Part shown: positions 1,656 through 7,035 of the stretch, one piece after another
Layout of the letters: every line of letters begins with the position of its first letter
Numbering within the stretch: position 1 is the stretch's first letter
Origin: Bacteroidota bacterium
GTDB taxonomy: Bacteria; Bacteroidota; Bacteroidia; UKL13-3
NCBI GenBank assembly: GCA_947457395.1
Contig: CANGVA010000002.1
Location: 180,675-244,674, forward strand
DNA length: 64,000 nucleotides
Direction: 5' to 3'
Translations under genes and position numbers: made by a program
Notes under the pieces: generated by a model
Seen by the model: only the letters and a program-made list of their open reading frames with translations
Database searches by the model: none
Told to the model about the DNA's origin: nothing

Positions 1656-3518
1656 TTAACGACCCAAATGCACCAGCAATACAGAAATATCCGCTGGTGA
1701 AATGCCGCTTATTCTAGCCGCTTGCCCAAGTGTAACGGGTCTTTGCTTGATAAGTTTTTCGCGCGCCTCTAATGAAATTGACTTTACTGTATTATAATCA
1801 AAACCATCTTTAATTCTTATTTCTTCAAGCCTGTTCATTTTATCAACCATCTGTTTTTCTTTTTCCAAGTAGCCCTCATATTTCATCAAAACTTCGGCTT
1901 GCAAAACAGCATCCTCTTTAAAACCTTGCAGAAATTCATTTACCTGTGGTAAGCGCTTTAGGTTTGCCATATCAACTTGCGGGCGGCTTAATATCGCATC
2001 AAGCTTATAATTTTGTGGTATTGGTGCGGTGCTCAGTTCTGCCAGTAAGGGGTTTATATCGGTTGGTATAACAGAGGTTTTTTTAAAGTATGTGACTATA
2101 TCTGCAGTCTGCTTTTCTTTTTCTTCCACAGCATGCATCCGTAATTTACTAGCTAATCCTAGCCTATACCCTTTTTCGGTTAGTCTGATATCAGCATTGT
2201 CTTGTCTTAACATAATTCTGTATTCGGCCCTGGAGGTAAACATGCGATAGGGTTCATCGGTGCCTTTGTTAACAAGATCATCTATGAGCACGCCTATGTA
2301 TGCTTCAGATCGTTTAAGAACAAAGTCTTCTTTTCCTGCCAGTTTACCATGGGCATTTATGCCCGCAATTAGCCCCTGGCATGCTGCCTCTTCATAGCCC
2401 GTAGTGCCATTAATTTGGCCGGCAAAAAACAGGTTTTCTATTAAATGGGTTTCAAGGGTAAGTTTGAGTTGCGTTGGGGGGAAATAATCATATTCAATGG
2501 CATATCCAGGTCTGAAGATTTTGGCATCTTCAAATCCGGGTATTAGTCTCAGCGCTTTTATTTGAACATGATCAGGCAATGAGGTGGAGAACCCGTTTAC
2601 GTATATTTCAACTGTGCTCCAACCCTCGGGTTCTACAAAAATTTGGTGGCGCTCTCTTTCGGCAAAACGATTTATTTTGTCTTCAATTGAAGGGCAATAC
2701 CTAGGCCCAAGCCCTTGAATTCGGCCTGCATACATGGGCGATTCATCAAAACCGGTTCTCAATACCTCATGAACAGCTTCGTTGGTATAGGTAATCCAAC
2801 AGCAACGCTGGTTGGAAACGGGTGTGGTTAGACTACTATAAGAAAACCTTCCCGGGTTTTCATCGCCATCCTGTCGCTCCATTTTGTCGTAGTTCAATGA
2901 TCTTCCATCAACCCTTGGTGGAGTGCCCGTTTTCATCCGGCCACTCTCAAAACCCAATGAAACAAGCTGTTCGGTTATCCCTGTTGATGACTTCTCTCCT
3001 ATTCTTCCTCCGCCAAATTGTTTGGTTCCAATATGAATAATTCCGTTAAGAAAAGTACCGCTTGTAAGTATTACGGCCTTGCAGCCTATTTTTTGCCCCA
3101 TTCCGGTAATTACACCACAAACCTTTCCTTTATCAAGCACGAGCTCTTTTACCATGTCTTGCCAGAAATCTACATTGGGCGTAGCCTCAAGAATTTCCCT
3201 CCAGTATTGGCTAAAAAGCATTCTATCGTTTTGGCTTCTTGGGCTCCACATGGCAGGACCCTTAGAGCGGTTTAGCATGCGAAATTGAATAGTAGATTTG
3301 TCTGAAACGATACCTGAATAACCCCCAATTGCATCTATTTCCCTGATAATCTGGCCCTTCGCGATTCCTCCCATGGCCGGGTTGCAGCTCATTTGAGCAA
3401 TTTTATTCATGTCCATGGTGATAAGCAAAACCCGGGAGCCAAGATTAGCAGCAGCAGCAGCAGCTTCACAACCCGCATGCCCTGCACCTACTACAATGAT
3501 ATCATAGTCAATAAACAT
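1656..3518 (-). CDS. mnmG: tRNA uridine-5-carboxymethylaminomethyl(34) synthesis enzyme MnmG (GidA)
   Basis: 620 aa; N-terminal YDIIVVGAGHAGCEAA FAD motif, MSCNPAMGGIAKG, GQINGTTGYEEAACQGLIAG. Confidence 0.97.
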   Translation of the reverse strand: MFIDYDIIVVGAGHAGCEAAAAAANLGSRVLLITMDMNKIAQMSCNPAMGGIAKGQIIREIDAIGGYSGIVSDKSTIQFRMLNRSKGPAMWSPRSQNDRMLFSQYWREILEATPNVDFWQDMVKELVLDKGKVCGVITGMGQKIGCKAVILTSGTFLNGIIHIGTKQFGGGRIGEKSSTGITEQLVSLGFESGRMKTGTPPRVDGRSLNYDKMERQDGDENPGRFSYSSLTTPVSNQRCCWITYTNEAVHEVLRTGFDESPMYAGRIQGLGPRYCPSIEDKINRFAERERHQIFVEPEGWSTVEIYVNGFSTSLPDHVQIKALRLIPGFEDAKIFRPGYAIEYDYFPPTQLKLTLETHLIENLFFAGQINGTTGYEEAACQGLIAGINAHGKLAGKEDFVLKRSEAYIGVLIDDLVNKGTDEPYRMFTSRAEYRIMLRQDNADIRLTEKGYRLGLASKLRMHAVEEKEKQTADIVTYFKKTSVIPTDINPLLAELSTAPIPQNYKLDAILSRPQVDMANLKRLPQVNEFLQGFKEDAVLQAEVLMKYEGYLEKEKQMVDKMNRLEEIRIKDGFDYNTVKSISLEAREKLIKQRPVTLGQAARISGISPADISVLLVHLGR

Positions 3519-3545: not shown

Positions 3546-3561
3546 GGTTCCACGTGAAACA
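3546..3561. promoter_or_regulatory. parS-like ParB-binding site 1
   Basis: ggttccacgtgaaaca; matches TGTTNCACGTGAAACA except the first base; in the mnmG/ybeY intergenic gap. Confidence 0.75.
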
Positions 3562-3568
3562 TGGAAAA

Positions 3569-4030
3569 TCAGCGAAGCAAAGATAAGCAAACATCCTCTT
3601 TCTTTCTCATTTTTTCCTTTTCGGCTTTGCTTTTGTCTTTGTAACCGCAGAGGTGTAATATTCCGTGAATCATGACGCGTTTGAGTTCCACGTGAAACGT
3701 TTCCTTTAGTTCTGCCGCATTTTCTTTGACACGCCCCTTGCTTATGTAAATATCCCCGGAAATTAAATTATTTTCAGTGAAGTCAAAGGTGATGATGTCG
3801 GTGTAATAATTGTGATTAAGAAATTCTCGGTTCATTTCAAGTAGGTGATTATCGCTACAAAAATTAAAAGAGATTTCTCCAAATGATTTCCTTTCTTCTT
3901 TAATGCAAAGGGCAATCCACCTTCTTAGTTCCTGCTTGTTGCGAACGAATGGCTTCACATCAATAAAATTAAAAGAGATGTGACTATTTGAGGAGGGTAA
4001 CGAACCCGGATTTTGTTTGTTTTTTACCAT
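3569..4030 (-). CDS. ybeY: endoribonuclease YbeY (16S rRNA maturation)
   Basis: HGILHLCGYKDK zinc motif (HGxLHLxGYDH-like), DIITFDF, GDIYIS. N-terminus overlaps the upstream gene, so the exact start is uncertain. Confidence 0.93.
   Translation of the reverse strand: MVKNKQNPGSLPSSNSHISFNFIDVKPFVRNKQELRRWIALCIKEERKSFGEISFNFCSDNHLLEMNREFLNHNYYTDIITFDFTENNLISGDIYISKGRVKENAAELKETFHVELKRVMIHGILHLCGYKDKSKAEKEKMRKKEDVCLSLLR
3684..3699. promoter_or_regulatory. parS-like ParB-binding site 2 (inside ybeY)
   Basis: agttccacgtgaaacg; perfect GTTNCACGTGAAAC core. Confidence 0.7.
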
Positions 4031-5786
4031 TGGGGCTAATTATATAAAACTTATAATAGTAAACACCACCAATACAACTATTACCAGAGGCGTCTTTACC
4101 GTCCCATCCGCCCGAAATGTCTTTTTGGGAAACAATAAGCCCCCCCCAGCGGTCAAATATTTCCATAGATGAATTTGCGTAATCAATATAACTTCCTTCT
4201 GGCCGGAATATCGTATTTACCCCCCCTGGCCGGAATGCGTTTGGTACATAAACCACCATTTCACCAATAAGACAATCTGAAAAGCTCTTGGCCGAAACCG
4301 GATCGGCTGGTGCCGGAAGGGCTTGAACGGCTTCAACAAAATAGCACAACCCAAAACTCCCCACGTTTTCGGGGAGTTGGTTGTCTACATACATGCTATC
4401 CGTTCCTGGAACAGAATCAATTAATATATAGCTTCTTTTCCCAAAATCATCATCTGTACCCCTGTAAATACGGTATATGGATACACCAGCCGGCCAACCA
4501 AAATACCTATTCCAGGTAAGTGTATTTTCGTTACTATTGGACACAACTTTAAGTACCATTTGGGGCATTACTACATTATTTTCATACAGAATATTACATA
4601 AATTAACGCTTTCAAGTCTGAAATGTAACTCATCTTCTCTGTCGGGAGTCATAAACACATGAGAAATGCGCCCGGTCTGCCCAAGGCTAGAAATGGATGC
4701 TATATTCGAAAATGTACCCCTATTTGCAGAAGCATTATACCAAATATTGATTTGCTTAGATTCCTCGTTGTTCACGATGAGTAAATCAGCCTTTAATTCA
4801 TCAGCATCCGGGTTTACAGCGCTTATATTAATTAAAAGCGTGTTTGTGGGCTCTTTTCGGCCCCTTGTTTGCAAAGTTAGTTGAGATGAAGTGGAGCTGA
4901 CCGAAACGCTTGTATCTCTGTAGGCTCGAACAAAAAAATCATTGACATCGCCAAGTAAAATGGGTAATTGGTAGCTGTTTAAATTACCTGGTAATGAATC
5001 AATTAACTTATATCCGGCACCATTTATTTGCCTAAAAATATAGTAATATCTTACCTTGGGCCAGCCCACATAGTGGGTCCATTGCAGACTTGCTGTTTTT
5101 TTACACGTATCTACGCTTCCGCTTAAATATATGGTAATGTGCGGATTAATATTAAAAACTTGTGGCCTTGTGTTACAACTATCTATTGATGTTATATCAT
5201 ATTTTAACGGCCTAAGTCTAGGATCAGAAAAGAGATTATTATCTGTTGCAAAAGTATCTCTAAGCACACCAGAAACGACCTCAACCCACTTAATCGCCAA
5301 GCTGTCATAAAATAACAGGTATCGGAAAAAGTCTGGTGTGGGGCTTTTTCTCCACCCAATCTTAACCCTGTTCGTTGGTATGTCTACGCTAACAGAGTCT
5401 AAAAATAGTGTATCGGGAGGTGTGTCGTCTACTCCCATTGTATCTGAAAATGAATTATTTGTAGAACAAGAATCCAGATATTGAATAAAATAACGCCAAT
5501 TGGTGGTGGTGCCAATCGGATTTGCGCCCAAGTGCATATATGAATCGGCCGATTTTATGCTGAGCGAATCAATTAATAGGAAAGGCCCGCTGTTTCCATT
5601 TCGCCCCCAAACGTAGTATGTTCTGAAGCGCTGGCATGTATCGTTTGATGGAAAGAAAAACATAGAATTATTTGGCCCAACCCTGCATACCCGCCTCATT
5701 TTTGGTGGTTCTGTACCCCATACACCCATTGCAAAATGGAGCAACAACAAAAAAGTGTATAAACTATTTCCCCGCAACAACTTCAT
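3984..5786 (-). CDS. secreted protein with gliding motility-associated C-terminal (CHU_C, T9SS type B) domain
   Basis: C-terminus VYVPNAFRPGGVNTIFRPEG...MEIFDRWGGLIVSQKDISGGWDGKDASGNSCIGGVYYYKFY...GFVTLLK; N-terminal signal peptide. Confidence 0.9.
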   Translation of the reverse strand: MKLLRGNSLYTFLLLLHFAMGVWGTEPPKMRRVCRVGPNNSMFFFPSNDTCQRFRTYYVWGRNGNSGPFLLIDSLSIKSADSYMHLGANPIGTTTNWRYFIQYLDSCSTNNSFSDTMGVDDTPPDTLFLDSVSVDIPTNRVKIGWRKSPTPDFFRYLLFYDSLAIKWVEVVSGVLRDTFATDNNLFSDPRLRPLKYDITSIDSCNTRPQVFNINPHITIYLSGSVDTCKKTASLQWTHYVGWPKVRYYYIFRQINGAGYKLIDSLPGNLNSYQLPILLGDVNDFFVRAYRDTSVSVSSTSSQLTLQTRGRKEPTNTLLINISAVNPDADELKADLLIVNNEESKQINIWYNASANRGTFSNIASISSLGQTGRISHVFMTPDREDELHFRLESVNLCNILYENNVVMPQMVLKVVSNSNENTLTWNRYFGWPAGVSIYRIYRGTDDDFGKRSYILIDSVPGTDSMYVDNQLPENVGSFGLCYFVEAVQALPAPADPVSAKSFSDCLIGEMVVYVPNAFRPGGVNTIFRPEGSYIDYANSSMEIFDRWGGLIVSQKDISGGWDGKDASGNSCIGGVYYYKFYIISPNGKKQTKSGFVTLLK

Positions 5787-7035
5787 AAAGATCTTCGTGT
5801 TTCAAATATTTATTTGCCATTTCTTGAAGAGATAACGAGGTGGTGTTTTTAATTATTTCAATAAATTCATTATAGTATTCTGCGCTTAGACCATAATCTA
5901 TTAAAATTCTTTGACGGCTAGCCTGTTCAAACACCCCATCCAGGCTTCTCAGAAAAGAACCCAACATATAATTCTTGGCGGTATTTAATTCTTCTTCTCC
6001 AACCGCTATGTTACGAAGCCGTTCCAGCTCTTTATATATTTCTGAAACACCAAGATCAACTAGCTCATTGTTAATGTCGGTTTCAATATAAAATACTCCA
6101 TCATAAAGGTAGGATTCTAGAGCGGAATAAATTCCATAAGTAAGACCCTTTTCCTCTCGAATGTTTGACATAAGCCGAGACCCAAAATACCCACCAAGAA
6201 TTAAATTTAGCAATTGCATTTTCCTAAAATCCGGATGATTCCGGTTAAATAGTTTACGCCCTATTCTAATGGTGGATTGTACCGAACCCCCTTTATGAAT
6301 TTCAATTTTCTGTGCCCGTTCCTGTGGGGGTGCGTATTCAAATATAGATTGGTTATGCCGGCCGAAAGTAGAGAGCACATCCGTTATTTTATCAATAACA
6401 CCGATACCCACAGACCCTGAAGCCATAATGTATTTTAGCTTGCGCCTGTAGTGCATCTCATAGAAAGAAACCAGTGTTTCACGTGAAATATTTTTTATAT
6501 CATGTTGATAAACAGGGGCTCCATATGGGTTTTTGTTTCCAAAAACAGCCTCAAAGAATGATCTTCTTGCAAGGTAAGAGGTTTTGCTTTCGTTCACCAA
6601 CAAACGCTGTACAGCATTTTCTTTTTGGGTTTTTATTTCCTCCTCGCTATAGCTGGCATGGGATAAAATATCAACTACAAGAGGCAGACAAGATTCTAGG
6701 TGTTTAGGCAGGCAAAACAGGGTAAGAGTTGCATCATCGTTTCCTGAGCGGTTTTGCAAGTACGCACCATAAAAATCAAGGTGCTCAGCCAGTTCTTTAG
6801 AAGTGTAGTGGGTGGTTCCTTCAACCAATAATGTGTTTGTTGCGCTTGCCACATATGGCGCAGGTTGAAGACGAGCGCCTGCATCAAACACAAACTCGAT
6901 CTTCAGCACCTCAACATTGGGGTCATTCACGGAATAAATTTCAACCCCGCTTGCTATCGTTGAGCAAACTGCCGGAGTTATTTGAACCTTATCAATTTCC
7001 CGCACGTTTGGGGCCGATATTCTGTTAATTGGCAT
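5764..7035 (-). CDS. M16 family peptidase-like protein, probable non-catalytic partner
   Basis: M16 fold features (KGLTYGIYSALESY, IRIGRKLF, LGGYFGSRLMSNIREEKG) but no HxxEH motif. Confidence 0.88.
   Translation of the reverse strand: MPINRISAPNVREIDKVQITPAVCSTIASGVEIYSVNDPNVEVLKIEFVFDAGARLQPAPYVASATNTLLVEGTTHYTSKELAEHLDFYGAYLQNRSGNDDATLTLFCLPKHLESCLPLVVDILSHASYSEEEIKTQKENAVQRLLVNESKTSYLARRSFFEAVFGNKNPYGAPVYQHDIKNISRETLVSFYEMHYRRKLKYIMASGSVGIGVIDKITDVLSTFGRHNQSIFEYAPPQERAQKIEIHKGGSVQSTIRIGRKLFNRNHPDFRKMQLLNLILGGYFGSRLMSNIREEKGLTYGIYSALESYLYDGVFYIETDINNELVDLGVSEIYKELERLRNIAVGEEELNTAKNYMLGSFLRSLDGVFEQASRQRILIDYGLSAEYYNEFIEIIKNTTSLSLQEMANKYLKHEDLYEVVAGK
6475..6490. promoter_or_regulatory. parS-like ParB-binding site 3 (inside the M16-like gene)
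   Basis: tgtttcacgtgaaata; a single mismatch (C to t at position 15) to TGTTNCACGTGAAACA. Confidence 0.6.

Follow-up and report, generated by a model that had tools for sequence, protein, structure and literature searches.

Putative parS sites beside mnmG near the replication origin of a Bacteroidota bacterium, and their conservation across Bacteroidia

Known partition systems and the three sites of the window

The chromosomal ParABS systems of Bacillus, Caulobacter and Myxococcus (Spo0J/ParB-parS) are characterized by a parS sequence with a 16-bp consensus, present as few sites near the origin. The site bound by Noc (NBS) is told apart from parS by two bases, one of which is an adenine at half-site position 1 (A1) (PMC7383237). 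In the case of Bacteroidetes, a Hi-C study describes parS clusters at the origin in two gut species, with no known condensin, and reports that in gut bacteria the origins do not always coincide with dnaA (PMC10197239). Here we analysed a 64,000-nucleotide stretch of a Bacteroidota genome (the window), in which three sites follow the 16-bp parS consensus and are, as in the chromosomal ParABS systems, few in number and near the origin. Based on their sequence and setting, we predict, with a probability of about 95%, that the three sites are parS and make up an origin-proximal centromere belonging to a chromosomal ParABS system, and that they are bound by ParB. The sites and the genes around them are as follows.

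1656..3518, minus strand: mnmG (gidA), TIGR00136, 814 bits; the gene adjoining parS across Bacteroidia
3546..3561, plus strand: putative parS site 1, GGTTCCACGTGAAACA; in the intergenic stretch separating mnmG from ybeY; one of the genome's two perfect cores
3569..4030, minus strand: ybeY, rRNA maturation RNase, TIGR00043 and PF02130; holds site 2
3684..3699, plus strand: putative parS site 2, AGTTCCACGTGAAACG; in the 3' part of ybeY, codons FHVEL; perfect core
3984..5786, minus strand: gene with a C-terminal CHU_C type IX secretion signal, PF13585
5764..7035, minus strand: M16 peptidase-like gene, PF05193 and PF00675; holds site 3
6475..6490, plus strand: putative parS site 3, TGTTTCACGTGAAATA; in the M16 gene, codons ISRET; hybrid, with A at position 1 of one half

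The initial annotation had described three 16-mers at these positions, two with a perfect core and a third with one mismatch, and had placed one within ybeY (3684, FHVEL) and one within the M16 gene (6475, ISRET); all of this was confirmed. A scan of the window located perfect GTTNCACGTGAAAC cores at 3547-3560 and 3685-3698, and in the match to TGTTYCACGTGRAACA both of these cores are perfect and site 3 has one mismatch. Site 1 lies between the start of mnmG (3518), which it precedes by about 38 bp, and the stop of ybeY (3569); sites at this position (about -10 to -60 from the mnmG start) recur across Bacteroidia loci. Site 2, on the other hand, is common to only two genomes, that of the window and one of the same genus, in whose copy the core differs at the parS-degenerate base alone.

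Rarity of the sites and their position relative to the origin, parAB and dnaA

The cluster had also been claimed to be rarer than chance would allow, and this proved correct: no perfect core arose in 100 dinucleotide shuffles of the window, and when the draft genome was scanned (2,538,974 bases, 34 contigs) the perfect GTTNCACGTGNAAC core was found at window positions 3547 and 3685 only, with no third copy in 2.54 Mb and no match to the reversed motif. Besides the two perfect sites, the genome contains seven one-mismatch sites, versus nine for the reversed-motif control, which is chance level; thus, site 3 cannot be established by counting mismatches in this genome alone. Among the seven, however, site 3 alone keeps Y/R at the two degenerate positions, and hence RTTYCACGTGRAAY has exactly three matches in the genome; these span 2.94 kb, and by simple arithmetic with equal base frequencies about 0.15 would be expected. 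Sites with the A1 change of site 3 in both halves do not occur in this genome. A parS-like match near parB (C9:3857) was rejected, as its Y/R pattern is broken and it lies inside a topoisomerase-like gene. The sites of the window are few and clustered, and not scattered over the genome.

It could be argued that the motif is due to chance, or is the accidental outcome of protein-level conservation, as two of the three are located within genes and one-mismatch matches occur at chance level genome-wide. The shuffles, which yield no perfect site, speak against chance, and the protein-level variant is contradicted by relatives in which synonymous positions are frozen and Phe and Ser are swapped at the degenerate base (see below), so that this explanation is barely credible.

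The proposal that the locus is an origin-proximal centromere region is supported by the contig that contains the window (244,674 bases; 245 kb), on which the cumulative GC skew reaches its minimum at 180-190 kb and mnmG and the sites lie at 184 kb. No DnaA-box cluster was found on this contig. For complete relatives, the GC skew was sampled from stretches. In LGM1 (CP075895.1), mnmG maps to 0.15 Mb and dnaA to 0.74 Mb. The stretches sampled there have negative skew between 1.8 and 2.97 Mb, values close to zero from 3.1 Mb onward to 0.19 Mb, and positive skew between 0.24 and 1.64 Mb; mnmG thus falls within the origin zone, and dnaA is located well inside one arm. In G021, the three genes map to 3.086 Mb (mnmG), 0.763 Mb (parB) and 0.985 Mb (dnaA); here the skew is noisy and reaches its lowest value near 0-0.05 Mb, which is 0.15-0.2 Mb away from mnmG. 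The window's own contig, belonging to a draft genome, thus places the sites near the origin; LGM1 agrees, and G021 does so only roughly.

The earlier reading also called for a ParB homologue, and this is present. The genome has one parB, outside the window (C9:13108-13998, the same as L022:13108-13998), and a gene for a chromosomal-type ParA directly upstream of it (C9:12302-13102), so that parS has both a cognate ParA and a cognate ParB in this genome. Like its counterparts in chromosomal ParABS systems, this ParB adjoins ParA and combines a CTPase-type N domain, a helix-turn-helix and a dimerisation domain (ParB_N, HTH_ParB and ParB_C), and the solved structures that match it best are chains of ParB, Spo0J and Noc. 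A ParB homologue was detected in 56 of 58 genomes (this one and its relatives). What did not hold is the expected proximity of the sites to parAB and dnaA: contig C9 holds parAB and contig C24 holds dnaA, neither being the contig of the sites, and in the complete relatives dnaA is about 590 kb from mnmG (LGM1), or parB and dnaA are both hundreds of kb away (G021). Unlike in the ParABS systems of Bacillus, Caulobacter and Myxococcus, parS here remains next to mnmG, a long way from parAB and dnaA.

By analogy with other bacteria, the ParB encoded at C9:13108-13998 would be loaded onto sites 1-3, form a closed, CTP-dependent clamp and spread over a few kb; after replication, the ParA encoded just upstream of parB would draw the ParB-bound sites apart.

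A second difference from those ParABS systems is that the family to which the window belongs is without Smc-ScpAB. Smc and ScpA are absent from 35 of 35 family genomes (f1, G000-G034), though ParAB-parS is kept, and ScpB is absent from all 17 family genomes searched; among the 58 genomes, Smc and ScpA are present in four. The three proteins needed for ParB-dependent loading of Smc-ScpAB are therefore not found together in this family, and since no Smc-ScpAB was found, the usual loading at parS is probably missing and segregation should rest on ParA-ParB, perhaps together with an unrecognised condensin. This combination of a parS cluster at the origin, an origin untied from dnaA and no known condensin resembles the origin domains of gut Bacteroidetes, as portrayed in PMC10197239.

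Another interpretation is that ParB does bind the sites, but that its main role is local, in the silencing or timing of neighbouring genes or in marking the origin for division control, and not in segregation. ParB spreading can influence neighbouring genes in other bacteria, and the absence of Smc-ScpAB, a main client of ParB, would also fit a local role. However, a chromosomal-type ParA is encoded beside parB, and the genes under the sites differ across Bacteroidia while the zone is fixed, for which reasons we regard a mainly local role as unlikely.

Linkage of mnmG and parS across Bacteroidia and selection on the DNA motif

The linkage was analysed at 131 Bacteroidia loci with a full mnmG, taken from the window, its relatives and named genomes. 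Perfect sites are present at 100 of these loci, and their absence from the other 31 is partly explained by hybrid sites. The loci contain 224 perfect sites, of which 223 are located inside mnmG or at most 4 kb from it. Upstream of the mnmG start, 127 lie within 250 bp, 22 farther out up to 1 kb and 10 up to 4 kb; seven lie inside the gene, 50 within 250 bp past its stop and seven up to 1.5 kb past it, and one lies elsewhere. The reversed-motif control gave no match in 1.3 Mb (80 named loci). Among the 58 genomes, 44 have perfect sites, mostly exactly two, near each other. The arrangement varies: Flavobacteriaceae and Chryseobacterium typically have one site per mnmG end, Pedobacter and Cyclobacteriaceae have two sites upstream of mnmG, and arrays of 8-9 sites are present in some Flavobacterium and in a Terrimonas. 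None of the titles and abstracts found for parS with mnmG or gidA mentions this linkage.

Since site 1 precedes the mnmG start by about 38 bp, and most Bacteroidia sites are just upstream of this gene, the palindrome might be taken for a transcription factor operator for mnmG or ybeY, and not for a centromere. Sites are, however, also located just past the mnmG stop and inside the mnmG, ybeY, CHU_C and M16 genes, they form arrays of up to nine, and the motif is the exact parS consensus in a group of genomes in which 56 of 58 encode ParB. An operator is therefore very improbable, and we rejected both this and the chance reading on the basis of the shuffles, the exclusivity of the sites within the genome, the codon freezing and the placement of the sites.

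Several other observations were made at these loci. Sites inside mnmG recur over the same codons (VSRxT, VPRGT) in different lineages, at +384 in L118, L123 and L157 and at +1479 in L065, L078 and L136, and were either inherited or gained repeatedly. At L081 (G039), L082 (G041) and L070 (G048), parS sites exist but do not adjoin mnmG; in two of the three they adjoin a methyltransferase matching the gene after mnmG, as if mnmG had been relocated. L118 (titled Azovibrio) and L134 (titled Limnohabitans) carry betaproteobacterial names and Bacteroidota-type mnmG-parS loci, and are probably mislabelled or contaminated MAGs.

Returning to the window and its relatives, the initial annotation had supposed that the sites constrain the codons over which they lie. 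This holds for the M16 site, in seven genomes, and more strongly for a site in the relatives' CHU_C gene, which is located between ybeY and the M16 gene. This fourth parS (L030-L057) lies about -940 from the mnmG start, equivalent to about 4.4-4.5 kb in the window; in the genus of the window it is lost (YFGWP), and the ybeY site is present instead. In the CHU_C gene, TATTYCACGTGGAAC is kept in 20 of 22 genomes of the clade, at the residues Y-(F/S)-T-W-N. Among the 20 genomes keeping the site, TAT, ACG and AAC are invariant codons, the site is the most codon-conserved of 473 windows in the gene, and the amino acid over the degenerate base of the motif alternates between Phe and Ser. The longest invariant nucleotide run in the gene among these 20 relatives is CACGTGGAAC (10 nt, the next being 5). 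Likewise, no invariant run in the M16 gene of the seven genomes with the site is longer than TTTCACGTGAAAC (13 nt, the next being 8), although in a ranking by mean codon identity this site is one of several top windows. Frozen synonymous positions, together with an interchange of Phe and Ser at the degenerate base, are the opposite of what protein-level selection produces. As judged from these alignments, selection acts on the DNA motif at the M16 and CHU_C-gene sites.

Hybrid half-sites and ParB specificity

In the clade of the family that includes the window, the surroundings of mnmG contain 41 one-mismatch sites, 35 of them with adenine at half-site position 1, and the 158 kb at greater distance contain none. 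In the other group of the family there are 21 perfect sites but no A1 sites, and at other Bacteroidia loci two of 29 are A1. At the loci examined, neither A1 in both halves nor an NBS-like site was encountered. It might be thought that the hybrid form is a mere compromise with coding; this was rejected because hybrids are also found in the intergenic site upstream of mnmG.

The A1 of site 3 and its kin is a feature shared with NBS, and the ParB of the window has the permissive K184 (Caulobacter numbering). Unlike in NBS, position 6 of the sites is parS-like and only one half is changed, and unlike in Noc, the ParB has R173 and G201, not Q173 and R201, and its score with the Noc model is below the cut-off. 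The ParB of the window is not a Noc. The RTKG form of ParB has been described as promiscuous (PMC7383237). ParB position 172 is N or K in the A1 clade versus D or E in the other group. This association may amount to one phylogenetic contrast, that is, to a single evolutionary event. Residue 172 was not upheld as a sufficient cause, as G047, G043 and G035 have N or K and mnmG loci without GTTYCACGTGRAAT sites. The recognition helix of the window's ParB (VSKNRTTVSN) carries S and N at positions occupied in most ParB by G and D/E/S; within the family, the S is common to the same genus only.

A tentative idea, which we would sooner doubt than endorse, is that in this one clade of a family without Smc-ScpAB, a ParB of relaxed specificity regularly uses hybrid parS in the centromere, as a natural intermediate between parS and Noc sites, associated with N or K in place of D or E at the ParB residue preceding the arginine by which base 1 is read.

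In summary, the element itself is of an ordinary kind and firmly identified as parS; its setting is unusual and deeply conserved, and one site variant is lineage-specific. The mnmG linkage, the codon freezing and the hybrid sites are features noted here; PMC10197239 covers two species, and none of the three features appears in the excerpts considered. The combination of mnmG and parS offers a simple origin marker for draft genomes of Bacteroidia, in which dnaA misleads. The sites within genes provide a case in which a DNA motif dictates amino acids, with a switch between Phe and Ser at the degenerate base, and the hybrid sites constitute a testable natural case of drift in ParB specificity. 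For the family of the window, the centromere would be one that is held in place despite distant parAB and dnaA, in genomes without a recognisable Smc-ScpAB.
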